Shown: piece after piece, positions 10,072 to 36,000 of the stretch | How the letters are laid out: each line of letters starts with the position of its first letter | Numbering within the stretch: the first letter of the stretch is position 1 | Origin: Caenorhabditis remanei | Lineage: Eukaryota; Nematoda; Chromadorea; Rhabditida; Rhabditidae | Length of the DNA stretch: 64,000 bases | Assembly: GCF_010183535.1 (NCBI RefSeq) | Contig: NC_071333.1 | Location: forward strand, 21,326,587-21,390,586 | Direction: 5' to 3' | Made by a program: the position numbers and the translations under genes | Notes under the pieces: model-generated | The model's input: only the letters and a program-made list of their open reading frames with translations | Databases searched by the model: none | What the model was told of the DNA's origin: nothing

Positions 10072-10912
10072 TTATCGAGTAACATAGAAAACTGGGAGGG
10101 GGAAAGAAAAATATTTACATTGTTGGTGATAGCATTCCAAAATGGAATAGTAAAAGAAAAAAAAGTTATCTGATAGGGGAGAGAGATTGATTAGAGCCAT
10201 GGGCCTTCTAGGAGAGTCTGACAGTCTGACATAGGTATTAAGAAAGGGAAAATGAGACGCGCCAGCAATGTATTTATAAAGTAGAAGCAGTTGTGCTTTA
10301 AGTCTACGGCGTCTAATGGAATGCATTGAGAGGAGTTCCAAGCGATGCGAGTAGGAAGAAAAAGAGATGTTGCAACGCTGGAGTGTTTTTCTAGAGTATA
10401 CTCTGAGGGTGGATTCAAGGAGTCTAGAGAGACGAGATGAGGGGGAAAAGCAGAATATAACAGAACAGTACTCCAGGATAGGTAAAACATACGTTTTGAA
10501 TAGGAATGCGTAGAAAGCAGGGTTGTTAGACTTGAAGGATTTTAAGATCTGAGATGAACGAAGTCGGGCTAGAGCCACAGTACGATTAATGTGACCACGG
10601 AACTTGAGATCCGGTTCAACAAGAAGGCCAAGATCTCGAACTGAGTTGGAGTCAGGAATGGGAGAACCCTCAATAAACAACTGATGATGGGGGTTGAGGG
10701 AGCCTAAGCGAAGTAGACCGGTTTTGGAATGGGCAAGAGGAAGGAAATTGGTTTCGGCCCATTTGGAGACCAAATCAATTCCAGCTTGAAGACTAGAAGG
10801 AAAGTGAGAGTAGATCTTAATATCATCAGCATAGGCTGCCACATGCAGGTGAGGAATATCATTCAAACTGAGTAACAAGTCATTAATGAACAGAATAAAG
10901 AGTAAAGGGCCC
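10072..10912 (-). pseudogene. LINE reverse transcriptase, C-terminal part
   Basis: The frame runs GPLLFILFINDL then YADDIKIY, the catalytic Y-A-D-D box of RT motif C, followed by the KTGLLRLG and LGLLVEPDLKF regions and a thumb/C-terminal domain ending near 10072. Non-LTR reverse transcriptases copy the element RNA at a nicked target site. This half is separated from the N-terminal half by the insert at 10913-13223, so no functional enzyme can be made from the genomic copy. Confidence 0.85.
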
Positions 10913-10914
10913 GA

Positions 10915-11745
10915 AATTGCAATCTACATGAACACTGCACATGTACATCAGCAGAATTTGAGATGCAATGCTACTGTGATAAAGATGAAGTGAAAGCAGC
11001 GTTTGACTCCCCACAAAGACATCTCCCGATTCGAGAAGGACATTGGAAATTGGAAGTGAGCAATGACACCGTACAAGCAGTCACAGGAACAGCAACGATG
11101 AAGATTACTATGAAGATCCTGAAAAAATGGTCGACAGTAACAATGCTTTCCAAAGACAGATGCAAGGCTACAGCCAAAGAAGCGGTCGGATGTTACGCCT
11201 GCGAAGCAGGATCAACAGCCGAAATCAATTGCTACACTCGAAAGGAAGACACTATGGCAAACGTGGATTGCGGAAAAGAAGTCTTCGCCATCAGATGTAC
11301 TCCAAACGGACACAACACGAACCTCACGTTCTTCTCAAACAACGCGAAATTCAGACGATCATGCTCGATCGGTTGCGGAGGAAACAGTGAGCGATTCGAA
11401 ATCAATGGAAACCTGAAGTATTCCGGTTCAATTTGGACATCGATCTACAGAGCAATTCGAGGAGATTCGACGCTCTATAATGAGATAAACTTTCCGGACA
11501 TCGGACATGTTATCGATAGCTACCTTGGATAAATGAAAACGGTCATCACGGTATTAGTAATAGTCGGAATTGGATTCCTTCTCACATACACGATGATAAC
11601 AAGAGCCGGATTAAAAGTTGTCAAGAACATCCTGAAAGGAATACTTTTCATCATCATGATGCCAATCGAGATCATATGTTGGATTTATTTTTTCTTCAAG
11701 CGCCGACGTGCCAGAAATCGGCCAAAAACGGAACACGTGGCTTAA
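10915..11745 (+). pseudogene. truncated Env, phlebovirus G2-like glycoprotein C-terminal half
   Basis: The frame is already open at the insert edge. It is cysteine-rich: HCTCTSAEF, CYCDKDEV, GCYACEAGS, CGKEVFAIRC, CSIGCGG. This spacing resembles the C-terminal domain of phlebovirus-type G2 fusion glycoproteins found in nematode BEL elements. A TAA at 11530-11532 separates the ectodomain from an in-frame transmembrane segment (about 11536-11700) and a basic tail ending KTEHVA. The N-terminal half with the fusion loop is absent. It is not a functional envelope gene: 5'-truncated and interrupted. Confidence 0.65.
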
Positions 11746-11807
11746 AAACCACAGTTTTTATCTTCCTTTTCTGCATGCCCAGTTCTACATTATATATTCA
11801 TAACGAC

Positions 11808-12623
11808 ATGGCGGCTCAACAAGTAGAGTTGGTCGACCTCTTGAAGATCATAAAAGGAGATCTGGATGAAGCAAGAAGTGCCATCAAGAAACACACGGAT
11901 GCAATTGAAGAATTGAGAAGTTCTATCGAGGCAACAACCAACGATATCGAAGCTATCCGGTATTATGGCCGGGGAGGCTCCTCCGGAGTTGAGCAGGCTC
12001 CAGAATTGCCTGGGCCGGCCCAACATCGCCGAGAAGGATCGCCAGGACAAGCCGAACGTCTTCGTGAAGGATCGCCACCCCCAAAAAGAAGAGACGATGG
12101 AGTTGATCCATCTCGTCCAAAACGATGGATCTACCCACGCGACTACGAATTGAAAACGATCAAGAACGATTGCGCCTTTTGCGGGCTCAACCACTATTCT
12201 GACAATTGTCAGAACTTCGAGTCAGCGGACGATAGACGCGACTCCATCAGAGGAATAAGATGCTCTCGCTGCATCAAACCCCTCGCACACGGATTCTGCA
12301 ACTGCAGACCGACACACTGTCGGTACTGCAAACGAGTCACAGAGCATCACTACTCGCTCTGTGACAACCCAGTCCACATTCACCGGACTCCAGAGGACTA
12401 CGTCCCAGACGATCAATGGAGCACAAATGGTCACCGATGTGACAACCACGCCCCTCGGGGAAACCGCCGAGGGCAAAGCTCCAGTCGCGATTCGGAGGAT
12501 CCAAATGTTCCAGGACCATCGCACGGGCGCCGCAGAGACAGTCACGCCCCACATAGGGAACCATCGAGAGAGAGAGGAGGACGTCGCCAACGACACGACT
12601 CAACGGACAGCAGGAGACACTAA
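11808..12623 (+). CDS. coiled-coil/zinc-knuckle accessory ORF of the BEL fragment
   Basis: About 271 aa from the ATG at 11808 (an in-frame extension to 11676 overlaps the Env tail). Residues about 1-55 form a charged coiled coil, followed by a low-complexity EGSP/RRE-rich stretch. Then come three Cys/His knuckles: CAFCGLNHYSDNC, CSRCIKPLAHGFCNC and CRYCKRVTEHHYSLC. The tail is rich in R, S and H. CCHC knuckles usually bind nucleic acid and are common in retroelement Gag proteins. Its position after env suggests an accessory protein or a displaced gag-like ORF. The ORF is intact, but whether it is expressed is unknown. Confidence 0.55.
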   Translation: MAAQQVELVDLLKIIKGDLDEARSAIKKHTDAIEELRSSIEATTNDIEAIRYYGRGGSSGVEQAPELPGPAQHRREGSPGQAERLREGSPPPKRRDDGVDPSRPKRWIYPRDYELKTIKNDCAFCGLNHYSDNCQNFESADDRRDSIRGIRCSRCIKPLAHGFCNCRPTHCRYCKRVTEHHYSLCDNPVHIHRTPEDYVPDDQWSTNGHRCDNHAPRGNRRGQSSSRDSEDPNVPGPSHGRRRDSHAPHREPSRERGGRRQRHDSTDSRRH

Positions 12624-12997
12624 CTTTAATGAGCCGGGAGTATACTCGAATCTCGTATCCTTTTATTATTATCGTTATTCTTGTATTGGTCCCCCATTCT
12701 TTTTGCTCTATGTTTCTATTGTCTAACACCCCTGCACCCACATCCTCCATCACGCTCTCTAGAGATAACGGCATCTGTAGGCTTCTTGACTCATGTTATA
12801 TAAATATAACACGGGACAAGAATGCCACAGATGCAACTTTTGTCATGGACAGATTCTGGGCCTCCTGATCTGTCCTTGCTCTCTCACACACACCCACATA
12901 CATTCTTTTCGCTCCTGTCTGAGACTGTAAGGCCCCGCCCCCATACAGACAGAACCTCCTTCCTTCCATTCCCTTCCTTCCATCATTTCATTGTTCT

Positions 12998-13022
12998 GAG
13001 ACCGTCGTGTTAAGACGGTCTC
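12998..13022. repeat. 9-bp stem inverted repeat in the BEL fragment 3' region
   Basis: GAGACCGTC and GACGGTCTC flank a 7-base loop. It lies in the pyrimidine-rich non-coding part of the insert (12624-13223), which may be a partial LTR. A hairpin in the transcribed terminal region is plausible; otherwise I see nothing in this stretch. Confidence 0.6.
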
Positions 13023-13223
13023 TTCTTTTTTCTCTCCCTTTTATTTTCCTTATTTTTTATTGTTCTCCATTATTTGTTATATCTTTTTTGTTATTGTTAA
13101 CTCTTTTATATTATAAAGGTTTAATTACCCAAATTTGAGGTTCTACACACAAACGCATTCTACCACACCAACGACGCCTAGAATATTCCTGAGGACGCTT
13201 ACGCCTGAAGGATTATTTTTAAT

Positions 13224-15349
13224 TTATACGGAACCTTGCGGAACACCGGAGGAGATAAAAGCGGAAGAGGGATTGATGAAACTGTTAACCTTAACGGAAA
13301 AGGATCTAGAGGAAAGAAAGTCTGAAAACCATGCTACAAAAGGAGGGGAAATGCCAAAAGAGGAAAGCTTGCTGAGGAGAAGGTTGTGAGGAACTTGGTC
13401 AAAGGCTTTCTGGAAGTCAAAGAATACAACATCAAGAGATTTGTGAGTTTTCAGAATAATATTGTAATTGGTTATGACCTGAACTAAAGAAGAGGCGCAG
13501 GACCGTTTAGGTAAGAAACCATGTTGATAAACCGAAAGCTTATGGGCAAAGTCAGATTTGATGCGGTTACAAATTATGCGCTCGCAAATACGAGATAAGG
13601 GATCAGTAAGACTAATTGGGCGATAGTTATTCGGAAAACTAGCATTACCTTTCTTTAGAACCGGAGTGACAACAGCTTTCTTCCAAGCATGAGGGACTGT
13701 AGAGGAGCGGAAAGAATCATTGAAGATAATCGAAAGGGGAAGGGCCAGAGAGGTGGCGCATTTCTTGATGAGTAGAAAGTTGGCAAGATGGGGCGAGAAA
13801 CCGCAACGAGGCGGAAGTTTTGATAAGGAACTCTCGATTATCCAAGGGGCAAACAAATCAGAATCCTGGATGGGATTGGAATGAGAAGCTGAGTAGATGT
13901 CGGAGACTGAACACCCGGAAACACTATGAGTCACAATGGGGTTTTTAAAATTGGAAGTGAACGCGGTAGTGAAGATGGAGGCTTTCTCAGAGTCTGTATT
14001 GACGATTCGACATTGATGGGAAAGAGAAGGAATCCTAGAAGTTCTTTTTAATCTTCTGGTTATGAGAGAGCGGGCGGCAAAACTGTGAGGGGAGTTGAGT
14101 AGTCTTCTTTCCGTTCTGGCGAAGTTGCAACGGATAGTTCTGGTAAGATTTCTAATGCGAGAATTCAGTGTCTGGACATCACTGAAGGACGGGCTAGGAG
14201 AGGCAATGAGTTTGGCAAGACGACTGCGTGCACGACGCAACTGGCGGATATGGTTGGAAGGCGATTTGGGTTTAAGCAAAGTTTTAGAAGGGGTGTGGGT
14301 TTTGATAAGTTCGGATAAAATACAAATGAACCTGTCAAATTTGGCCGAGGACGAAGGAAGGGTACAGAAAATAACATCCCAGTCAATGGAAGCAAGATCA
14401 GAATTCAAGAGAGTATAATTACATTTTCTGTAGTCAAGTAGATGGGAATGGGAATCTGATGGAGGATCGGGGAAAGTGGAAGCAGCAGAGCGGGGGAAGA
14501 CAGAGAAATGGACGCTGAAGTGGTCTGAGTTCAAAAGTGGTGGGTGGCAAACGGGAGGCGAAAGAGCTATATCATTGGAAGATATAACTAAATCAAGAAT
14601 ATTGGAAGTAAGTGAGGTAGTGCGGGTAGGAAAGTCAACCAGCTGAGTTAGTCCCTTTGAAACTAAAAAGTCAGAAAAAGGATGCCGAGAAGAGTTATCG
14701 TTCCAGTCAACAGATGGGAGGTTGAAGTCACCAAGTACTACTGCGGAGGAGAGTGGAATGAGAGAGTCAAGATGTGAAATGAGAGAGGAGAGTTCAGACG
14801 ATTTGCAATCCGGAGGACGGTACACAAGTATTAAAGTAAAAGGAGAGAAAGTAGTCCGGTTATGACTAGAAGATGAGGGGGAGACGAGACAAGCGGCAAT
14901 TTCAGATTGGTGCAAGGGATAGTGATGGTCTAAATTGGAAGGAATGAGAGTGAGGCAGACGGTACTTTTGAAAAGGAAAGCAACACCCCCTCCAGTAGAT
15001 TTGCGGTGAAGGGATTGCATGCGATCACATCGAAGTATAGAAATGTTACGAGACACGAAGAGAGAGGAAGGGATGGAGTCATTAAGAAAGGTCTCGGTAA
15101 GTGCAATAATATCGTGAGAGGAAGCAATGAAGAGATCAATAAGAAGAGAAATTTTAGTAAGGCTGGCGACACCTCTAACATTAGAAAGAAGGATGTTGAT
15201 ACCAATGTCAGACTGAGGAGAAGAAGAGGAAGGACGAAGGCTCTTACAAGAAGGAGAGGAAGATGAAAAAGCAGAGAAATTAGAAATATAATCAGAACGG
15301 CAGATAACTGGGGGTGAATGAGGAAGACAGGCAGTTGAATAAAAGGGCG
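13224..15349 (-). pseudogene. LINE ORF2 N-terminal part: endonuclease and reverse transcriptase
   Basis: The frame opens after a TAA near 15350 and contains SDIGINILLSNVRG, LTETFLND, STGGGVAFLFK, VYRPPD and VLGDFNLPSVDWN, the motifs of an APE-type endonuclease (catalytic E, D, N). RT motifs follow: VVTPVLKKG, NYRPISLTD, DFQKAFDQVPH and SGVPQGSV. The protein nicks the target and primes reverse transcription. The frame stops at the BEL insert. It overlaps ORF1 in another frame at its 5' end, as in two-ORF CR1-like elements. Confidence 0.85.
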
Positions 15350-16126
15350 GGGCTTAGAGTTGACTTTATAGTTGATGTCCGTCATAATGTATTTGGATTC
15401 ACCAGCAATCTTGTTCTGATCATAACAAAATTTCCGAGAGGCGCGGAGAGTTTCAAGTTCTTGTTTCGTTAGATCACGACGAGCACGAGGCTTGGAGGCG
15501 ATAACGAGGAGAGATTTGTCCGTAGAGCGAATTTTGTGATATCCATGAAGGAAGATGTCCCGATCCGTAGAAGAGTCAAATTGGAGTTTGAGAGGGCGAA
15601 ATTTCGAAGAACATTGATGCCGGTGGGCTTTCTTGGGAGATGGGAGACGATTGGCCTTTGCTAACTTCTGGAAAAAATCTAGATCATCTGAGTCCTGGTT
15701 TGGGTTGTCCAGCTTGTCCGGCATCCGTTCGATTACCACCCGAGTAGCTTTATCGAGAAGCTTTGCGGCTTCACGAGCAATATCCAAGGAGCTGATTGAC
15801 GCGACAGGAGCAATGGCTGCGGATACTTGAGGGATCATCGATGAAGAGTTGACGAGAGCAGGAAAATCGGTAACGGATAGAGAGGGCTGTAAGAGGGGAT
15901 CAGCAATTTGGGACATATCCTGGAGGAGTTCACACGAATCCGCCACAGCGACAGATAACTTGTTAGGTCCCGAATCAATTATTGCTCCACGTAACTGATT
16001 GACCAGGGAAGAGAGAGCAACGACTCGATCATAAAGAGCTTTATAGGCTTCATATGGTACAAACTGGGGAGGAGCGTCGTCCTCAGAAGCAGTCTGCTTC
16101 CTTTTGGGAGGGCGGTTGAAAACCAT
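15290..16126 (-). CDS. LINE ORF1-like protein
   Basis: The ATG at 16126 begins MVFNRPPKRKQTASEDD, a basic N-terminus, then a predicted coiled-coil-like stretch (YKALYDRVVALSSLVNQL), an Ala/Ser-rich middle and a basic region with KLQFDSSTDRDIFLHGYHKI. I see no CCHC knuckle. ORF1 proteins of LINEs bind element RNA. The frame stays open to 14930, but downstream of about 15290 it is out of frame with the real endonuclease ORF, so the true end is uncertain. Confidence 0.55.
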
Positions 16127-16130
16127 AGTT

Positions 16131-22505: not shown

Positions 22506-23695
22506 GCATTTTTATAGCAAAAACAGAATTGTTCCTTTCTGGAAATCCATTTTCGGGAATAATTCCCAAATCTCCTTTTCCAAAGTGCTCAAATTTCAAA
22601 ATATGTTTAACAAATCCGGCAATCGTACAAGAAGACATAACAGAATTCCAGCTGTTGAATAACTTTTTGCAAATCTGAAAATTTTAGATAATGAAATATT
22701 TAATTGAATGTACCTAACCTTAATGTATTCCGAGAGTCCTGCAGTAAGAATTTCAACATCACTTTGACAGTAGGATAGTAATTCTTGATCAGCATCGAAA
22801 GGTTCAAGCTCGTGTTCGTTATACCATCTTTCAAACTCGGCTAATGCTTCAGGTTTCATATGACTTGGGTCGTAAAAATGTTTTACTGGTAATCCAATCA
22901 GATTCTTTCCATAATTTTCTGGATGATTGAAATAGTAGGGATAATAACCCTTTTTCATCTCGGTGATTCCAAAGGTTTTTGGCATTTTCGCTAAAGGCAT
23001 AGGAATGTAGCGTAAAGAATCACGAAACTTGAGACTGTTGAACACATCAGATTTCCTGCGTGTAGTAATGTTGGCCATAATGAGTGATGTACCGTTTGAA
23101 ACATATTCAGGAATTATCCCAAATCGTTTCATCATTATGGCCAAAATAAAATTATGATCATATCTGTAAAAAATTGTTGAAGAGAGAATGATGATGATAC
23201 TCACCGTCCACCATTATGAGCTATTACATAAGCACCATTCAGTTTTGAATTGTGTAACAAGAATTCTGCAAACTTTTCGAGTGGTTTTGTGAATCGAGTA
23301 TAACCAAAAGTTCCAGATTCACAATCACATGTTGTTTTTTCTTCTACGCATTTATTGCAACAAGATTAGGTTGACATCATGATTGGGTTGTGGCTTGGTA
23401 GGGTCTGGAAAAAACTTGCACCGAGGAAAATTGACGAACTGTACCTGGTCCATTTGGAGAATTCGTTACAATTGATTCTACATCATAGCATATAATTCTG
23501 TACTCTTGTTGCGCAATCTTTGTATTTTCTTTGAATTTTTTTCTTGGTGGTTCAAAACAGCAATTATGATATCCGTATTTATCAAATTTTTGTTTACACT
23601 GACGGCATCTTGTAGTTTTATCACACTCGTGTATTTCATCTTGAGCAACTTTATCTTTGCATACTCGAAAATTGCATTGAAGACAACTAAATTGT
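22506..23695 (-). pseudogene. inverted exonuclease segment of the P2 polB
   Basis: Read on the reverse strand, zinc-type motifs (CLQCNFRVC, CRQCKQKF) are followed by the exonuclease motifs: ICYDVES (Exo I, D-x-E), AHNGGRYDHNFIL (Exo II) and YCQSDVEIL (Exo III). Between the last two lies RYIPMPLAKMPKTFG. A frameshift sits near 23385. In a normal polB this block lies between the zinc region and the palm on the same strand. Here both neighbours are on the forward strand, so the block was inverted with small losses at each breakpoint. Confidence 0.75.
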
Positions 23696-24598: not shown

Positions 24599-25161
24599 TT
24601 GAAGCATTTGACTGAAACCATTGTGGCTCCATTCAAGAAGCACTCGTTGGTTATTCAAACTCCAAATTATTGGAGTTTGTTCCTCGATAAGGATCGCGAT
24701 GTGTCTCTTGGAGGTGTCAACCAAGTCTTGAGAAGCTGGAACTCGCTGAGCACTAACATCTTGGTAAACAAAATAATTTTTCTATAAATTGAATGTGAAA
24801 TTTTATTATTTCAGAAAGTCAATCAACGAGTCCTGGAAGGTTTGGAAAACTGTTCCAACTGGAATGCTGCAGAGCAGGACGTCTGGGTGGTTTCTGGTTC
24901 ACCGGTTGTGTGCACTTTGAACTATGACTTCTTTGACAGCTACGAAGCCGCCGATGTGCTTCAATGTCAACGTGCCCTTGTTGGAGGCCGTACAGAAGTC
25001 TTCCGCGTGTATGTGGACTGCAAGGACGGACTCGAATGGAAGCAAGGAAACACGGGACTCTGCTCGACATTGACGAAAGCTCAAGAGACTCGTTTGACGA
25101 CATCGTGGCGACTCAGAGTGTTGGATGTGGTCAAGAATAAAGTGGAAAACTCGTTTATTTA
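24599..25161 (+). CDS. P1 gene carrying a polymerase-like GGRT segment
   Basis: Exon 24599-24763 (GTAAAC donor) and exon 24815-25161 (TTTCAG acceptor) join in frame. The start is uncertain because the frame is open only from about 24540. The second exon contains VLQCQRALVGGRTEVFRVYV, strikingly like LLECEKALVGGRTEVFKLHL in the P1 polB (exon 34659-34762), a motif that precedes the palm in protein-primed polymerases. No catalytic motifs follow, so it is not a polymerase. It may be a captured and diverged polB piece. Product about 170 aa, function unknown. Confidence 0.5.
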
Positions 25162-25219
25162 AATATTTTTTTATAATTTAAAAATATTTTTCAAGTAAAT
25201 AATAAAAAAAAAAAATTAT

Positions 25220-25592: not shown

Positions 25593-25823
25593 CTATCCAG
25601 ATGTCACATGAAGATTATTTTTCTCGTCTTTGTAAATTTTGATGGTTCCCACAAGAGTCATATTTTTGAATGCATCTTCATAGAGTGGAAGCATTTGCGG
25701 ATATGGCGGATGAGGGAGTCCGATGGGGTGATTGTTTTGCGTTGGTGGATCCATAAAGTTTCCAGACATTGGACTGAGTGGAGGGTCAGTCGGGAGTGGG
25801 ACAGCGTCAATTTGTTCAATCAT
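25593..25823 (-). CDS. small proline-rich P1 protein, 76 aa
   Basis: Starts MIEQIDAVPLPTDPPLSPM and contains LPHPPYPQMLPLYEDAF, then a lysine-rich end. Its ATG overlaps the last codons of the protease gene by 8 bases, in keeping with the compact overlap style of the P1 capsid block. It may be a minor virion component; I recognise no family. Confidence 0.45.
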   Translation of the reverse strand: MIEQIDAVPLPTDPPLSPMSGNFMDPPTQNNHPIGLPHPPYPQMLPLYEDAFKNMTLVGTIKIYKDEKNNLHVTSG

Positions 25824-26334
25824 TGTTAATGAATGGGTTCTGATGGCATTTCAATGGCTTATATACTCTGCTCTCGCACAGCTTCAAATGGTTTTTGACC
25901 CATTTTACTACAAAATTGTCGTTTTTACCAAGATTTGCTGAAAATGGCAGACGTATTGCCTTATTCGATCGTTTTCTTGCCTTTTGAATCAAAAAGTAAA
26001 TGCAATAGTATCCACACACATTTGAAAGTATTCCTTGAATAGGTGATTGTAGCACCTTTTTCCACTTTGAACAGTTTTCAGCGAAAAATTGAACAAACTC
26101 ATCTTGCGGGTCACAACCACTACTGTCAAAGAAATATCCATAGTTTCGGTCATCTACCCAAAGGGCCACCCAATGCTCCCCAGATTCGTTACTTGGTGCT
26201 GTATTCCATATAAAAGAGCACGGTCTGCTGTTAATAATGGGCTTTTTGTCACTTGGGAAGACTCCATGAAAACATCTTCTGGTCAGGCGACAGGTACTTA
26301 GGAATTTATCAAGTTGAATAGTTGACAACGACAT
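25816..26334 (-). CDS. adenain-like cysteine protease
   Basis: About 172 aa from the ATG at 26334 (an in-frame extension to 26424 is unlikely). GEHWVALWVD carries the catalytic His, FFDSSGCDPQDEF the acidic residue and conserved Gln region, and SNVCGYYCIYFL the nucleophile Cys. This H-D/E-C order is that of the adenovirus maturation protease, which cleaves capsid precursors and is a core Polinton gene. It begins 29 bp after the PAZ gene stop. The frame is intact. Confidence 0.85.
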   Translation of the reverse strand: MSLSTIQLDKFLSTCRLTRRCFHGVFPSDKKPIINSRPCSFIWNTAPSNESGEHWVALWVDDRNYGYFFDSSGCDPQDEFVQFFAENCSKWKKVLQSPIQGILSNVCGYYCIYFLIQKARKRSNKAIRLPFSANLGKNDNFVVKWVKNHLKLCESRVYKPLKCHQNPFINND

Positions 26335-26362
26335 TTTTATTAAAACTTGACAAAAATACAAT

Positions 26363-26899
26363 TCAATAAACACGCATACGGAACCAAATGGCCTCAAGTG
26401 GGTACATTCTACCAGAGGCATCACGCAAAAGGGGTGAGTGTGGGTAGTTAAGGGTGATATTGTACTTTTCTTGGAAATATTTCAAAACTGAGACATAATT
26501 GCGCTTTCCTCGATTTCCGACACGAATGATCATGTTGACAAAGCTGTGGTTTCGTGGAGTCGCATCCCTGAAAATAAAAATATTTTGGAAAAAAAAAAAA
26601 GTCTTCAGAAATATAAACTTACAAACTCAATTCACTGATCAAGTCCACATTGTAGCCGTTGCAACCATTCCAGATTTGGGGGATATTCATGTCAAGTAGA
26701 TGAAGATTAATGTTTCGAATCTTGTTGATTGACAAGTGATCCAAGGAGCCAAACTTTGTTGCCAAATAGGATGCCAAGTTAGTGTCGACATACTGAAAAT
26801 TAAACATTATTTGTGTTAAAAAGGATAAAAATTTACCTGTGATGTCGGTGGAACATATCCATCTGGAAGAACCAGTGGTTTCTTGGAACCGGGCAGCAT
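26363..26899 (-). CDS. stand-alone PAZ-domain protein (Argonaute-type PAZ), 145 aa
   Basis: Exons 26837-26899, 26623-26792 and 26363-26567 have consensus splice sites, and the joined frame divides exactly into 145 codons plus stop. Exon 2 has NLASYLATKFGSL...LSINKIRNIN...LISELSL, matching the entry half of PAZ. Exon 3 has NHSF, VSVLKYFQEKYNITLNYP, SPLL and MYPLEAI, matching the YF...Y...L.YP..P.L...Y.PLE signature that shapes the PAZ 3'-end pocket. PAZ domains bind the 3' ends of small RNAs in Argonaute and Dicer. No PIWI, MID or N domain is present, so slicing is impossible. It lies between MCP and protease. Binding to small RNAs or interference with RNAi is inference. Confidence 0.75.
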
Positions 26900-26941: not shown

Positions 26942-28195
26942 CTAATGGTGACTAGTCACATTGACATTTCGGAATCTGTCAATTTCGTACATTGAATCGA
27001 ATTGTGACAAAACTATCACATTTAGACCACCTTTCGGTGTTTTCTTCGCAAAACGCATCAAAAGCTGGGTGCTACCGCTTTGAACGAGTTCCTAAGCATT
27101 TGACGATACAATCGGGGCTAAATTGAAAACAAAGAATGTATAGCCTGATCGGTACATTTTGTAAGAAATCCTCGGGGTAGTGTTGGTTGATACACCACCA
27201 AGTTCTTCATGGAAACGGGCAAAAGCTTGAGCATAGTTTTTGTTTTCAAAATCACATCGTATCGGCTGAGGTGGGTAAACTGTACCGCCGGCATCTAGTT
27301 GTACTTCAGACACATTATAATGGCCAAAATCCAAGGAATTGGTGATAATCGACTCTTCTGGCGGGAGAATACCAATAATCACACGTCTTGGTATGATATC
27401 ATGGTACAATGTATTAAATGGCATCTCGAGTCTTCCCTCTGGAACGGCAATTAGTTTCACCTTTGTGGACGTAAATGGGTATTGAGCTGGAGAAGACCGC
27501 AAACGGTTTTCCATAGCAATTGTAGCAGAGGAAACCACTTCAATTGCTCGCATATGAAGTTTCAATTCAGTAATTTCTAGCTCCGCTCTAGTATCTTTGG
27601 AACTTTTCATACAAAAAGCATTGTCACTCCGATAAAGTTGAAGTTGAATATTGATATGCGGGACCAATAGTCTTTCAGTTTGAAATGGCTCCAAAAGCAG
27701 GGGAGCACACAAATCAAGGTAAGTTTTTTCGTTCAAAGCACGAAAGTCTTCATCTCCATACTCATGCCAACCAGCCGCAGTCAAAAGTCCTTCCTTGGTA
27801 TCACTGTTTTCACCCAAAAGTGTGAGAATATAGCTCTTGTAGTTGTAATCCCCTTAATCGTAAATCATTACATTATTAAAGGATAGTTTGACTTGATTGA
27901 AGAATGTCGCTCCGATGAAATTGGTATGCTCAATCTTGATAGGTGACTCTGTTCCAGTTGGAGCTTCAACGTTTTTCAAGTTTAGCTTGAACGAAATATA
28001 CGTCCTGTTGAGTTGGAAAAAGTGAGCACTATCAAACACATTAAAGGAATACGGCCCTTTTGAATCGATTGCGCTAGTTGGGGTAAAAGTCATCCATTTC
28101 CCCTTATTGAAGGCAACTTGACTTGGTGGAGTGTCGAAGAGACAAATGTTGGAGGGTGCACTTGGTGCGCTATTATTGTTGATCAGTTTTGCCAT
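26942..28195 (-). pseudogene. major capsid protein (double jelly-roll type), two in-frame stops
   Basis: One frame of 417 codons runs from the ATG at 28195 to TAG at 26942-26944. It is broken by TAA at codon 114 (27854-27856) and TAG at codon 368 (27092-27094). The N-terminus has ICLFDTPPSQVAFNKGKWM and FNVFDSAHFFQLNRTYISF, closely shared with the P4 fragment at 55214-55467. Later there are PRRVIIGILPPE and NPLDFGHYNV-like (here NSLDFGHYNV) motifs typical of Polinton hexon-like proteins. The rest of the frame is well kept, so the stops look recent. The start overlaps the end of the upstream basic gene. Confidence 0.75.
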
Positions 28196-28683
28196 TTTCC
28201 AAAAATATCACGTTTACGGGAAGAAGATTTTGGTAGAGAGCGTTTCCTAGTTTTGACTTTCTTTGAAGGCTTCTTTCGAGGTCTTTGCTTCCGCTTCTTC
28301 AAAGGTTTTCGTTGTCTTCTACGTCTTTTGCGACCACCAGACTGATCCAGTTTGCTAACAGCTCGATTAATCAAAGAATTATAAGAATTTGTAGCGTTTT
28401 TCGACAAGGACTGTTTAAAAGAATCACCAGACGCTACGTCGTTTGCAACACGAAGTGACGAATCCATAACTTCACGGCCTATTGAAACACCCATTCGTTT
28501 TAGCAGGGGGACAGCGGAAATGAAGAGTTTTCCGAGAAGTTGCGAGAAAGGACCGTTTCCCCGTTGATAGAGACTTCCGGCACGAAATCCACCAGAACCT
28601 GCTTGATTTGGTTCATTTTCGAAAAAATGGACCCAATCAACAGAATTGTCAGGATCAAAATAGATATACATATCACGAGGCAT
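28183..28683 (-). CDS. basic core/minor capsid protein
   Basis: 166 aa. The first half has GSGGFRAGSLYQRGNGPF and an amphipathic LFISAVPLLKRMG stretch, reminiscent of adenovirus/Polinton minor capsid proteins of pVI/pX character. Residues about 118-160 are almost all K and R (KRRRRQRKPLKKRK...), suited to binding packaged DNA or to nuclear import. It overlaps the MCP start by 13 bases and is followed by it as in P4. The frame is intact. Confidence 0.7.
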   Translation of the reverse strand: MPRDMYIYFDPDNSVDWVHFFENEPNQAGSGGFRAGSLYQRGNGPFSQLLGKLFISAVPLLKRMGVSIGREVMDSSLRVANDVASGDSFKQSLSKNATNSYNSLINRAVSKLDQSGGRKRRRRQRKPLKKRKQRPRKKPSKKVKTRKRSLPKSSSRKRDIFGKWQN

Positions 28684-28686
28684 GAC

Positions 28687-29460
28687 TTAACCATCGATTG
28701 AAAATGAAATTGGACGGAAGTGAAGTACAATCACAATCTTTCCAGAGTTGAAAGGAATGAAATGATCACGATCGTTCTTTATTTGTATGCCAATACGATC
28801 AACTTGTCTCGATCGAACAGGTACATATAGAGGGTTTGTGAAGGTTTGATCAATATTTCCAGTGTCTGTCGTAGATAGGGTGATAACTTTCAAAAGTGGC
28901 ACTTTCATATGACTAATCGTTTGTGGCTCCACCAATCCTTCAGAATAGATGTACATTAGATCGGATCCAGAAAATGCAGAATATTGTCCAACGACTGGAA
29001 AAGCTGTTGAAACCTTGTTGAGGCCAAGAAAATAGCTCAATCTGTCAGAAAGTTCAACTTTGGTCACTTTTGCACTTTTCTGAATAGTTACCCTCTTGAA
29101 CAGCGGTTCATAAGAAAATAGTTCAATCTTGGTTTTTGTGTCGTTTGTGACACGAATCATAGTGTTGTACAGGGTATAATTCAAAATACCAACCAACTCC
29201 ACAGGTGAAGAAAATGAGCAATTGGGAATTGAGCATCGCATACTTTGCTTGTCAAACCAAACTACAAACTCATTTTCAAAAGAACCATCAGTTTCCAAGC
29301 TTTTCGTCAACAAATCGTGGGATGATGGGTAAATTATTGAACTCAGGGCAACTTCGTATGGTCTATTAAAATTTAGTGTAGATGGTAGATGCGTCTTAAA
29401 GTTTGAAATTGTAGAATCCGTTTGGGCGTTTGAAACAAGAGTGATGTAAAAATCCGTCAT
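28687..29460 (-). CDS. penton-like minor capsid protein
   Basis: 257 aa, starting MTDFYITLVSNAQTDSTI and then YEVALSSIIYPSSHD. This opening (F-Y-x-T-L-x-S-N, then E-V-A-L-x-x-I-x-Y-P) is typical of Polinton single jelly-roll penton proteins that form the capsid vertices. It lies between the small membrane protein and the basic protein, overlapping the former by 4 bases. The full frame is intact, unlike the deleted P4 copy. Confidence 0.75.
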   Translation of the reverse strand: MTDFYITLVSNAQTDSTISNFKTHLPSTLNFNRPYEVALSSIIYPSSHDLLTKSLETDGSFENEFVVWFDKQSMRCSIPNCSFSSPVELVGILNYTLYNTMIRVTNDTKTKIELFSYEPLFKRVTIQKSAKVTKVELSDRLSYFLGLNKVSTAFPVVGQYSAFSGSDLMYIYSEGLVEPQTISHMKVPLLKVITLSTTDTGNIDQTFTNPLYVPVRSRQVDRIGIQIKNDRDHFIPFNSGKIVIVLHFRPISFSIDG

Positions 29461-29663
29461 TCTTTAATTTTTGGGTTTGGAAGAAGGTATCCAATACACG
29501 AACCAAGAACAACTAGCCAATGCTGATGTTGAGGGTAGTCAAGGGTACAAATTTTATATAGAGCAACAAATGTGACAATATAAATTATCAAAACTTGGGA
29601 AATGAATACAATCAAAGCTTTGGAACAATGAATGTTGCCACAAGACCACGTAGGGCTTTCCAT
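29457..29663 (-). CDS. small conserved membrane protein of Polintons
   Basis: 68 aa with WSCGNIHCSKALIVF, a helix around VLIIYIVTFVALYKI and the end LGSCIGYLLPNPK. A close homologue is at 56177-56386 in P4, so it is a conserved gene. Its role is unknown; a virion membrane or assembly function is possible. A potential 39-bp intron in the preceding integrase gene would splice integrase in frame to this ORF. Confidence 0.65.
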   Translation of the reverse strand: MESPTWSCGNIHCSKALIVFISQVLIIYIVTFVALYKICTLDYPQHQHWLVVLGSCIGYLLPNPKIKE

Positions 29664-29702: not shown

Positions 29703-30736
29703 TCACGATTTTCTACTACGTTTTTTAACTATTTTATCAATTTTCTTCAAATTATCAGGTTTCTGATACAATATCATCTCTTCTTGATACCAGATACCGT
29801 CGAGCTCATTTTCCATGTCATCTGCGAGAATGTAGACTGGAATATCATATTCCACAATTTTGATCACTTTGAATACTTCTTCGGACCACTTGGCACGTGT
29901 CCCTTTAGCAAAAGGCGAATTTTCCATAAGAATCCTGACAGTATCACCTACTTTGAAGCAAGGTTTACTTGATTTTGCAGATCCATAAAGTCGATTCCAA
30001 ACTTTTTGGGCATTGTTCCAGGAAACTTGCTCGGGAGACATTCCAATTGAATCCATATAGGTGGCATTCAAACCCTGGACGATATCATCCAAAACCAATG
30101 TCCACTCATAACTACCTGTTGCTGTGAACCATTTTTCCAACTTGTTTTTAATTCTCATGATTGCATTTTCAGCATAACAGGCCTTCACGTTGGTGTTTTT
30201 TGGATTCATATGAGAAATCCCCAGTGAGCCTACAAGTTCTCGAAAAGTGCGTCCCATGAACTCGGTACCTGAAAAGTAAAAATTAGTTTTTGCAAAAAGG
30301 ATAGTATTTTACCTTTATCAGTATACAAACGAGCTGGAATCCTCCAAGTTGTCAGCAAAATATCTTCATACGCATCGGAAACTGTGCCACACTCTTTATT
30401 TTTCAAGGGTCGGGTGAAAAGAAAGCGGCTAAAGACATCGACGACCACCAAAATGTAACAGAATCCTTTATTTTTCTTCTTTAGAGTAGGTAACATTGCG
30501 AGATCGGCCATGTGATGACTATCGGGACCGGAAGCAACCCATGGGTTATGCTTAATCTTTTTGATATTATGAAAGTGTCGAGTGTATGCATTATTGGAAT
30601 GAAGATAGGATACTACATCTCTTCGTGTGATAGTTGGATCAATTTCCCGGGCATCAGCGAGTAATTGTGAGACACCACGGAAACCAGACTTGGGATTATG
30701 ATACAATTTTTCAAGTAATTTTCCTTTTTCTGACAT
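29703..30736 (-). CDS. retroviral-type integrase, chromodomain lost
   Basis: Exon 30313-30736, a 44-bp intron, and exon 29703-30268 give 329 aa. The catalytic triad is visible in HMADLAML (D), LYTDKGTEFMG (D) and ACYAENAIMRIK (E). The region TVRILMENSPFAKGT...WSEEVFKV is the SH3-like DNA-binding part. The frame ends KIDKIVKKRSRKS at the point where the P4 homologue enters its chromodomain, so the targeting domain is truncated. It inserts element DNA and makes the 6-bp target duplication. Confidence 0.85.
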
Positions 30737-31376: not shown

Positions 31377-31710
31377 GAATAGTAGTAGCGGCTGCTATCA
31401 AAACGGGCAAAAGTATAGTGACTGGGGATCCACCAGTTTGAATCAAAAACTCTCGGGTATCATCGAGATTACGGAAATTTGCCAACATTCTCAAGTTTTG
31501 AGCTTGAGGACTTAGTTTTGCAACAATTTTCGGTGGAACCTTGATTGAACCGTTGATAATGTTAAAAACCAGTTCAACTAGACATATGAGGACTTTGTCG
31601 GGAATCGAATTGATTTCGGAGATTCTTTCATTTTCATCCGTAGTTGAAGAAAGGGCCAGAATCTTGTGAAAAGCCTCCAAATCCCAACAATTATTTTGGT
31701 ACATAGACAT
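31357..31710 (-). CDS. conserved small Polinton protein with hydrophobic C-terminus
   Basis: 117 aa, from the ATG at 31710 inside the ATPase stop region. It ends TREFLIQTGGSPV followed by a hydrophobic LLPVLIAAATTI stretch. The P4 copy at 58113-58472 has the same ending (TREFLVQTGGSPV), so the gene is conserved. A membrane-active or capsid-associated peptide is possible; function unknown. Confidence 0.6.
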   Translation of the reverse strand: MSMYQNNCWDLEAFHKILALSSTTDENERISEINSIPDKVLICLVELVFNIINGSIKVPPKIVAKLSPQAQNLRMLANFRNLDDTREFLIQTGGSPVTILLPVLIAAATTILENVLR

Positions 31711-32320
31711 GAGTGGTTTTGCCAGGGAGGATATTATCGCGATAACGAATTTCGTCAGGGCAGTTTTTATGTAGATCAATAAGCAAATACGTATAAGGCT
31801 GATTAGTAGCGTCTGTATAAATGGACAGAAACGTATTGCATGAGCCAGGCATAAGTTGTGAACCCAAACACCGTACACTTGACTTGTCTGCATTGTTTTT
31901 GAACAAAATTATATAACTTGCCTGCAAACGCAAGTTTCTAATCACTTTTGAGTAGAAAATAGTGTGAAGTAGAAACATGATGGTCATATCGTAGTGGTGG
32001 GCCAAAACAGAGACTAAACGCTCCATTCCAGAGTTTTGGTCGATTTTTGTCATTAAATCGTCTATAACCACCATAGCCTGTTCCTTCTTATATTTCTTCA
32101 ATTCTTCCAAGTTTGGAAGTCCCTCACGAAGCAAAATATCAGGCCTATTCTTCATCGAGTCGGGTACGCTTTCAAAGGTATCGTAATACCAAAAACAGAC
32201 TTTGCTATTTGCATCAAAAATAACATTTCGTTGGTCCACAATTTGTCGAGCCAAAGTGCTCTTTCCTTGACCGCTTGGTCCGACAATAAGAATAGTAGAC
32301 TGCCAAGCTAGCTTAACCAT
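31691..32320 (-). CDS. FtsK/HerA (A32-like) packaging ATPase
   Basis: 209 aa from the ATG at 32320. Walker A is GPSGQGKSTLA, Walker B is AMVVIDDLM, and a downstream polar residue region (MFLLHTIFY) follows. These ATPases pump genomes into capsids in Polintons and large DNA viruses. The end reads LIDLHKNCPDEIRYRDN, which is also found in the truncated P4 copy at 58450-58565. The frame is intact. Confidence 0.85.
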   Translation of the reverse strand: MVKLAWQSTILIVGPSGQGKSTLARQIVDQRNVIFDANSKVCFWYYDTFESVPDSMKNRPDILLREGLPNLEELKKYKKEQAMVVIDDLMTKIDQNSGMERLVSVLAHHYDMTIMFLLHTIFYSKVIRNLRLQASYIILFKNNADKSSVRCLGSQLMPGSCNTFLSIYTDATNQPYTYLLIDLHKNCPDEIRYRDNILPGKTTHVYVPK

Positions 32321-33086
32321 GATGAATGAATATTTTTTTTTTGAATATTTTTGTTTCATTTTCATTCCATTCGATGCGAAAAAATTTCTATTAATTTTTC
32401 TATTACTGGAGAATCTCATGAATTTTCCATTTTATCGCATAATTTCCGATATTAACACATTTCCGACAATATTTCACTAAAATATGTGATGGCCGTCCCG
32501 TAAATCGACACGGCCTATCTTTTCTGTCTCCCAGTCCCCGGCCCCGCGCAAGTACGTAAGTACACCACGGGCATTGCACACTTTTCCCATCTCTCAACTA
32601 TTTCATCATCACCTTTCTCTCTGTGTGTCTGTTTGCTTCCTTCACTACTTTGACGCGGACTTGTAAAAATAAATTTATTAAGAAAAAATCCCTCTTTCCC
32701 AATAACAACATAACCACCAAGAAAAGCAAGTCGGAGGGTCACAACAAGTGACCTGGAGATGAAGCGAAAGCCAAAGGCTAAACCTTCCCTTCGCCACTCC
32801 TCACCGGAGCGGCTCATTGGTCAGGTTCTGAAAAGGAGTTTGTGTTGTGAGAGATTCCATTCCAAAACCGTGTCCCATAGCATAATCCAAAATCTTAGTG
32901 CAGAAAGTACCTTCTGTTTCTCCCTATCCAATGCAAATTCGCATTTTTATGTGGACCCCTCACTAGTGCAAATTCGCTTTCTTTCTCGCCTTCACTTCCT
33001 TGCTAAATGTACATTTATTCGTGGAATTGCGTAAAAAGAGAGACTTTATTCAAAATACCCGAAAAGTAAAGTAAAAACATGATATT
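32321..33086. other. non-coding gap between ATPase and polB
   Basis: About 770 bp upstream of the ATPase and downstream of the polB stop, both on the reverse strand. It contains pyrimidine-rich tracts and a GC-rich patch near 32530, probably a promoter for the capsid block. No gene or repeat recognised. Confidence 0.4.
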
Positions 33087-36000
33087 TTATTCGAAATACC
33101 CAAAAGGTAAGGTTGATCCATCCATCAGTATTCTTCTCTTATTAAATGTGAAGCGGAATCTCTTATTGATGGTGCGGCTGAACACATGATGGTCCCTGTC
33201 TCGATTGATGACAAATTGCGGCAAGTTCATCGTGGTCCTGTCAGCAACATCCTCCAAAACCTCGGTGATCATATTCTTCATTTTGCCAAAAGTAACTCGC
33301 TTGTCGACTTCGGAATTGATTGTGACGCCTTTCATCTTTCTCACAACCTGAAATTTTATATAAGTATTAAAGTTTTTGAAAAATGAATAGTACCTTGACT
33401 TCTCCACTGGAAAGACGATCCTTATAACAATAAGTTTTGGGTCCAAGGCTAACAAACTCTTCCAATTCACCATCCAATTCATTTGTGAGTTGTCCTAGGT
33501 AGGGTCCGATCTCCGATGCCAGTGGATCGTCGCAACCGTCTGGGACCGTATAAATCAATGAATCGGTATCTGAAAAAAGTTTGAAAATTTTAAGAAAATT
33601 ATATAAAAACCATACCGGAATACACTAGATTGTCTGGACCAGCCATCTCCATGAGCCGATACAAGCGGAGGCGAGCATAAGATGTTGTCAATGCGGCTAG
33701 ATGTACGGCGCTTGTCTTCAAACTTGAAAGAGTTTCCGCCTTCTTTCGATACTTGATGACGACCACATCATTCACAGGACGGACATCGAGGAGGGCAATG
33801 GAGGTGTCATTAACCAATTTCCAAAACTTTGATGGATCGATAACTATTTCAGTGTGCTCACGATCGACTCGCTGAGCAAACTTCCCCCACTGAAAATATT
33901 ATTATTTTTAAAATTTTTAGACAAAAGACTTACGAGTGAATTCAGCAAGAGTTTGGCAACGGCTCGTTTTCCGGCATTCTTCACGAAACGAGTCCAGTCA
34001 TCGAGGCGGATATGTTCCTTCTCCCAGTATCCCTGGCAGTATTCAGCCTTCTCTTCATCCGTGTTGACATTTGACGGCCAGCCAGAGCTATACTGAAAAT
34101 TGAAAAGAAAAGGATTTTTAAAAGTTTGAATACAACTTACAATCTTCTCTGCCATCATTGAGTTGATGTATGATGTGAATAGGCCTCCTTCTCCATCAGC
34201 ATTGTTTTCCACCCAATTCTTGTACTCTACTCCATGATAAACTTGAACAATTTTGTAGCCGAGTTCAAGGGCTTTTTTGAGTTCCACAGTTGTATAAGTT
34301 CCAGAGAAAGCTCGCTCCGATTCAGTGTGCTCACACTTTGACTGGCACCCAGCTTTTGCACATTCTGAAAAAGTATTTTAAATGATTGAAAATAGTCTAA
34401 AACTCACTTTTGCACAAAAAGAACATCAACCGGCCAGATGCTTTTCCGGGAATCAATGGTGTCTTCAAGTCATTTGGAGCAACAATTTTACAACTGAGGA
34501 ATCCTTTGAACTGCAAATCTTCAGGAGTGGTCATTGGCACCTTCATGCTGCTTCTTGGAACATTGACTGGCTCTCCGATAGGATAAGACTCGTGTTTCAT
34601 GACGGTCGGGTATAAGCTGAAAATAAGTTTACGACCAAATTTTGGAAAAAATACTCACCTAACTACATCGAGGTAGTATCCTTTCTTTCCTTCACAGCGC
34701 AAATGAAGTTTGAATACCTCGGTACGTCCTCCGACCAAAGCTTTTTCACATTCAAGCAAGTCCTGAAAGGATTCAACTAATTTTAGAAAAATTTCAAAAA
34801 TGCTTACCACTGCTTCATAGTTTTCGAAAAATTCAGCCATGTCCTTATTGTTTCGGAGCTCTTTCTTGACTTCACACTCGTAAACAACTTTGACTGGGAC
34901 GGTATTTCGCAATGTTCGAAGGCGTTTCCGGTCTTCCTTCCAAATTTCACGAGCACTCCTTTCTCCAATAATTGATTCTTCCGAGTAGGTACATGTGTGT
35001 CCATGCCAATAACATCCCTGAAAAATCTTTCTATATTTTGTATATTTTTCAAAAACTTACAAAAAATTCAATAACCTGACCGTCAGGGTATTTTTCGCAT
35101 TTCGGAATGTAACCATCGACTCGATAGCCATCAATTTTTTCTTCACCGTACGTGGTCGACATGTTCATTTGGACTCCTTCACTTTCTCCAATCCAAGCCA
35201 AGTATTTTTGACTCAATACAGAGTTGCTGACTGATACGGAAGGTTTAGCGTCCAAGACAATTTCACGATCCTTGTGCAAATGATTACGACGGAAAACTTT
35301 TGCTGCAGCTGAAGCAGCTGTCGTAGATTCCTAAAAAATTTATTATTTTTAAAGGTAACCAAATAAAAAACTTACTTCCAAGAGGCAAACGTTTGTCATC
35401 GCTTCAAATTCTTTTTCGAATTCCGTCATTGCTGAAGAGAGGATGAAGACATCATTATAACAATACTTGTGGATTTCGTCAATGAAGTTGAATTGTTTTC
35501 CAGCATTTCGTTCAGCATCCAAAAATTCGACCAATTTCTCTCTGACAGGTGCTGGTTTGTTTTCGATGGCGTAGTAGTCATTGTCGGGGATGGCGCCAGA
35601 GTAGTCGTAATTTTCAGGTTTTATAAACTTGACCGGAAAATCTCTGTAAATTGAAAATTATTTTCACAACGAGTAATTGATAACATACCCTTTTTCCGAC
35701 TTGATTTGGAATGTCTTGGCGACGTTGGCGAGGCTCATTGTCAGGTATTTGAGGGAGTCGATGAGACGGACATTATTGTATTTCATGTAGATAATTTTGG
35801 TCCCATCAAGACATACTTCGGGTGCAGCCTTGTTGCTGGAGATCATGTTTTCCAAGATGAATTGACCATCGTAACTAAAAATATTTTATGTTTAACTGAA
35901 AAGAAAATGTTTCTTACCCGGATGAATTGTGTGCGACGGCAACATATCCTCGGTGATGATTGCCAAACAGCCACTTTGTGAGACTTGCACCAACATTGAC

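Follow-up and report, generated by a model that had tools for sequence, protein, structure and literature searches.

A protein that consists of a PAZ domain standing alone is very probably a regular component of Caenorhabditis Polintons and not a stray Argonaute fragment. In the window (the whole 64,000-nucleotide stretch of C. remanei DNA that was analyzed), the gene for this protein is flanked by a capsid gene upstream and a protease gene downstream, with integrase, ATPase, and PolB pieces on the same strand. The new point is that elements of a known class carry a known domain, alone, as a standing gene; whatever its role, the gene provides a handle for tracking these elements across Caenorhabditis.

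Nematode hosts have very active small-RNA defences. For the question of how Polintons persist and escape silencing, a PAZ-only protein whose gene is kept beside that for the capsid offers a concrete and testable candidate. Should it bind small RNAs, the host's own RNA-end-binding domain would be turned against the host by a virus-like element. Polintons are described as moving between nematode species (PMC10680173). The parts of the Polinton literature covered here (PMC11071308, PMC10680173, PMC3671162) mention no PAZ gene; the main 2023 papers on nematode Polintons (Science, MBE) lie outside this coverage, and an earlier description is possible. The titles and opening lines of abstracts on PAZ together with Polinton or Maverick report no such gene. 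Automatic database labels exist for single PAZ proteins, and we found no link to Polintons in them.

The PAZ gene and its Polinton setting

The exons of the PAZ gene and the other Polinton genes recognized around it are listed below, with their coordinates in the window.

26837..26899, minus strand: PAZ gene exon 1, 21 codons (MLPG...), followed by a phase 0 intron; same protein in NCBI
26623..26792, minus strand: PAZ gene exon 2, the N-terminal half of the fold, followed by a phase 2 intron
26363..26567, minus strand: PAZ gene exon 3 (YFQEKY...HSPLL...MYPLE), stop codon included
25816..26340, minus strand: adenovirus-type cysteine protease (PF00770, 23.1 bits, cut-off 21.3)
27092..28195, minus strand: double-jelly-roll major capsid gene (PF21738, E 2.6e-4, 20.7 bits, below the cut-off of 27), with a stop at 27854-27856 that breaks the frame (27092-28207)
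28687..29463, minus strand: candidate minor capsid open frame, expected from gene order; no relevant Pfam match
29703..30736, minus strand: integrase in two overlapping frames, broken (PF00665 rve, E 6.2e-6, 26.8 bits, below the cut-off of 32.6)
31691..32431, minus strand: P-loop ATPase (several P-loop families match; Adeno_IVa2 only at E 0.076)
35349..35657, minus strand: PolB piece (PF03175, E 1.8e-5, 24.3 bits, just below the cut-off of 25.8)

The first-pass annotation had joined the three exons in frame to a 145-aa product, and this gene model held up: both introns have GT-AG ends, and the NCBI protein GCK72_010616 is 99% identical to the product over its full length. The possibility that the exons had been joined by chance was ruled out by the occurrence of the gene at 47 genomic places and by annotated homologues. 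In a C. nigoni gene model (P0002, 245 aa), the PAZ gene is fused to the last part of the capsid gene, which is probably a gene prediction error; a spliced capsid-PAZ fusion is possible.

The PAZ gene of the window is open, although the Polinton copy around it is not intact. The capsid frame is broken in this copy, and a 421-aa open frame is found at two near-identical genomic places. No long terminal inverted repeats with arms of at least 40 nt were found between window positions 14000 and 46000. This copy, partly broken as it is, may also be truncated. The Polinton/Maverick gene set comprises PolB, integrase, ATPase, protease, and major and minor capsid genes, with a fusogen and the cargo genes wosp and krma in nematodes, and the PAZ gene sits in such a module; the P-loop ATPase is probably the packaging ATPase. 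Nematode Mavericks are reported to carry extra genes (PMC10680173).

PolB pieces were seen on the minus strand at 22596-23213 as well as at 35349-35657, and a PolB-like piece was recognized by eye on the plus strand at 24788-25162; since these pieces lie at several sites and on both strands, they may be what is left of two or more Polintons. Beside the Polinton, at 10072-16129 on the minus strand, there are long frames that by eye resemble the endonuclease and reverse transcriptase of a non-LTR retrotransposon.

A PAZ fold without an Argonaute body

When the 145-aa protein was compared with Pfam, PF02170 (PAZ) ranked first with a significant E-value of 5.6e-6, and no other family was found. 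The domain had previously been recognized from the letters alone, and the profile agrees with that assignment by rank and E-value, but the score of 26.7 bits falls short of the curated cut-off of 28.8. PF02170 was likewise the top family for all ten PAZ-gene members scanned, each of them below the cut-off (best score 27.1 bits), and it is assigned in the source database, with a later model version, to P0001 and P0011. Alignment of the gene family with seven host PAZ exons by hhalign gave 93.6% over 40 columns.

The predicted structure of the protein had a pLDDT of 90.5, and all 31 of its Foldseek matches at E<=1e-3 were Argonaute/PIWI proteins, as were all 50 of the VIA structural matches among those listed. 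The PAZ fold spans residues 17-145 of the model and is common to the protein and to Argonaute/PIWI PAZ domains (PF02170; human AGO1 1si2, AGO2 8thq, and Hiwi1 3o6e), with 13-18% identity among the structural alignments listed. Unlike Argonaute and PIWI proteins, which have N, MID, and PIWI parts, the Polinton protein stops after PAZ; the MID and PIWI domains are absent, and the protease and capsid genes adjoin. The first-pass reading of a lone PAZ-fold protein inside a Polinton is supported, the gene module being made up of PolB, integrase, ATPase-like, capsid, and protease pieces. A fragment of an adjoining Argonaute was considered and rejected, the neighbours being capsid and protease genes.

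Among viral structures in BFVD there were no matches at E<=1e-3, and the two proteins queried against PHROGs gave no match. A scan of IMG/VR with the PAZ family found no relative, which is uninformative because the scan with the capsid piece was equally empty there.

Linkage to the capsid gene, constraint, and a second lineage

Searching the genome with the PAZ protein gave 86 exon-level matches, which merged into 47 places, and the capsid piece gave 85 matches at 74 places. Capsids with at least 40% identity to the query piece were classed as the close type (45 places) and the rest as the distant type (29 places); PAZ genes beside the former are referred to as lineage 1 and those beside the latter as lineage 2. 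The results showed that the PAZ gene lies 186-516 bp downstream of the capsid gene, on the same strand, in 42 of the 45 close-type places. As to the three exceptions, one (contig C1) keeps an apparent exon 1, a weak match with E 0.015 in a small search, in another (C27) the contig ends one base past the capsid match, and the third (C85) is a capsid fragment without a PAZ match. Three of the 47 PAZ places had no capsid match nearby. Homologues were also found in C. nigoni, C. brenneri, and C. tropicalis.

On contig C6, one Polinton PAZ copy has an Argonaute-like gene (L042:3471-6022, plus strand) approximately 6 kb away; the PAZ part of this gene scores above the Pfam cut-off and the remainder was recognized by eye. 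A near-identical PAZ frame is present on contig C40 (L041:4744-5364, plus strand).

Exons 2 and 3 were free of stop codons in all of the 30 loci examined, a sample that favours intact copies because the best-scoring loci, at 25 of the 47 places, were chosen; lower-scoring genome matches include decayed copies. In the same 30 loci, intron 2 invariably had a GTAAG or GTGAG donor and an AG acceptor, and the stop codon after exon 3 was at a constant position (one codon later in one type). Pooled pN/pS, calculated with nine representatives out of 15-17 distinct exon sequences, was approximately 0.43 for the PAZ gene versus 0.23 for the capsid segment, values that are only a rough guide because dS was often undefined (for 18 PAZ pairs and 24 capsid pairs, out of 36 each) and synonymous sites were near saturation. 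Rough as it is, the ratio indicates constraint on the PAZ gene. Judged by these sequences, the gene is retained by selection and yet evolves faster than the capsid gene, a pattern that fits an arms race and fits weak constraint as well.

A PAZ homologue was present at 5 of the 29 distant-type capsid places, with intron phases identical to those of lineage 1. This homologue was also modelled as a PAZ fold; the model had no Foldseek match at 1e-3 or better. This homologue and the capsid gene lie on opposite strands in all five places, and co-expression of the two is therefore not fixed.

The putative 3'-end pocket and the possible role of the protein

In simulations of Argonaute PAZ (PMC5896489), the terminal nucleotide of the RNA is held at its phosphate by H269 and Y309 and at its 3' hydroxyl by Y336; K313 and Y314 hold the RNA backbone, Y277 holds the preceding nucleotide, and F292 contacts the last base. 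When the Polinton protein was aligned with human AGO1 (1si2, to which the AGO residue numbers were assigned by spacing), its YF..KY motif coincided with the Y309, K313, and Y314 contacts: Y309, F310, K313, and Y314 correspond to Y108, F109, K112, and Y113, and none of these four varies among the 12 lineage-1 proteins. Equivalents of H269 and Y277 were not located in this alignment. F87 is also invariant in lineage 1 and may be the equivalent of F292. Outside the pocket, D79, R126, E136, and R141 mark invariant motifs of lineage 1, and our guess is that they are on the protein surface. In the five lineage-2 proteins, the position of Y309 is occupied by I, V, or A and that of K313 by D, and Y314 alone is kept. 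In its alignable part, lineage 1 would therefore fit a 3'-end binder in having the residues that such a protein needs; lineage 2 appears to retain the fold with an altered pocket, and, with most of its aligned pocket residues changed, it does not fit one conserved binding function.

The explanation that we favour as a whole, tentatively and as somewhat short of probable, is that a regular Polinton PAZ gene encodes a protein whose binding of small-RNA 3' ends blunts host RNAi. An Argonaute-type PAZ domain was presumably captured before the two capsid lineages diverged or moved between them, and purifying selection would then have kept the gene beside the capsid gene. With the same pocket that Argonaute uses, the protein would grip host small RNAs by their 3' ends, and silencing of the element would be blunted by the withholding of these RNAs from Argonaute. 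The likeness to small-RNA-binding viral silencing suppressors would lie in this proposed outcome, the keeping of small RNAs from Argonaute; the suppressors of this kind known to us have folds unrelated to PAZ. More speculative still is a wider version, that Caenorhabditis Polintons carry a dedicated anti-silencing gene derived from a part of a host Argonaute, whose PAZ-only product would occupy small-RNA 3' ends. The gene would be old enough to occur, with identical intron phases, in both of the distant capsid lineages, and in one sublineage it is accompanied by a second PAZ-like gene. When the family HMM was compared with eight host loci, several kinds of PAZ exon had similar scores (best 22.2 bits), and for this reason no donor clade is claimed.

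Next in rank, and rather unlikely, is a virion or packaging protein, made together with capsid and protease, in which the OB-like PAZ fold was recruited to bind the DNA of the element or another capsid protein. Such a role would account for the fixed lineage-1 position between the capsid and protease genes on one strand and for the retention of the fold in lineage 2 with the loss of most aligned pocket residues, but it leaves the invariant RNA-end contacts of lineage 1 unaccounted for and sits poorly with the opposite orientation of all five lineage-2 genes. Nor are PAZ proteins known to us from virions. It is improbable that the protein is a decoy that acts through its surface, for example by occupying an Argonaute or Dicer partner, and does not hold RNA ends; the fold common to both lineages despite their different pocket residues, and the invariant motifs at D79, R126, E136, and R141, if these are indeed on the surface, are consistent with it, whereas the invariant 3'-end contacts of lineage 1 would need another reason. 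Very unlikely is a replication factor that binds single-stranded DNA of the element itself, at its 3' ends, in protein-primed replication: PAZ can hold DNA ends too, as the deoxynucleotide overhangs in the title of the AGO1 PAZ entry 1si2 indicate, and PolB pieces are present in these elements, but the gene is in the capsid block and does not adjoin PolB, and nothing else supports this role. A non-functional passenger, that is, a decaying host fragment spread by copying, could be suggested by the broken capsid and integrase frames of the window's own element, but is hardly credible and largely contradicted by the 47 places, the kept exons and splice sites, the pN/pS of 0.43, and the homologues in three other species.

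In all five lineage-2 places, the PAZ gene is adjoined by a second gene, PAZ-like in its C-terminal stretch (SLYPIDLVH...), for example at L047:3915-4274 (minus strand), L039:6261-6593 (plus strand), and L052:1498-1857 (minus strand). In a small search, the second gene matched the HMM only weakly (E 0.0066 and 0.016), and it had no Pfam PAZ match. Downstream of another distant capsid type, a PAZ-like exon was seen as a weak match at L048:1618-1791 (minus strand); used as a query, it gave 25 matches in the genome, many of them at sites with no listed capsid match nearby.
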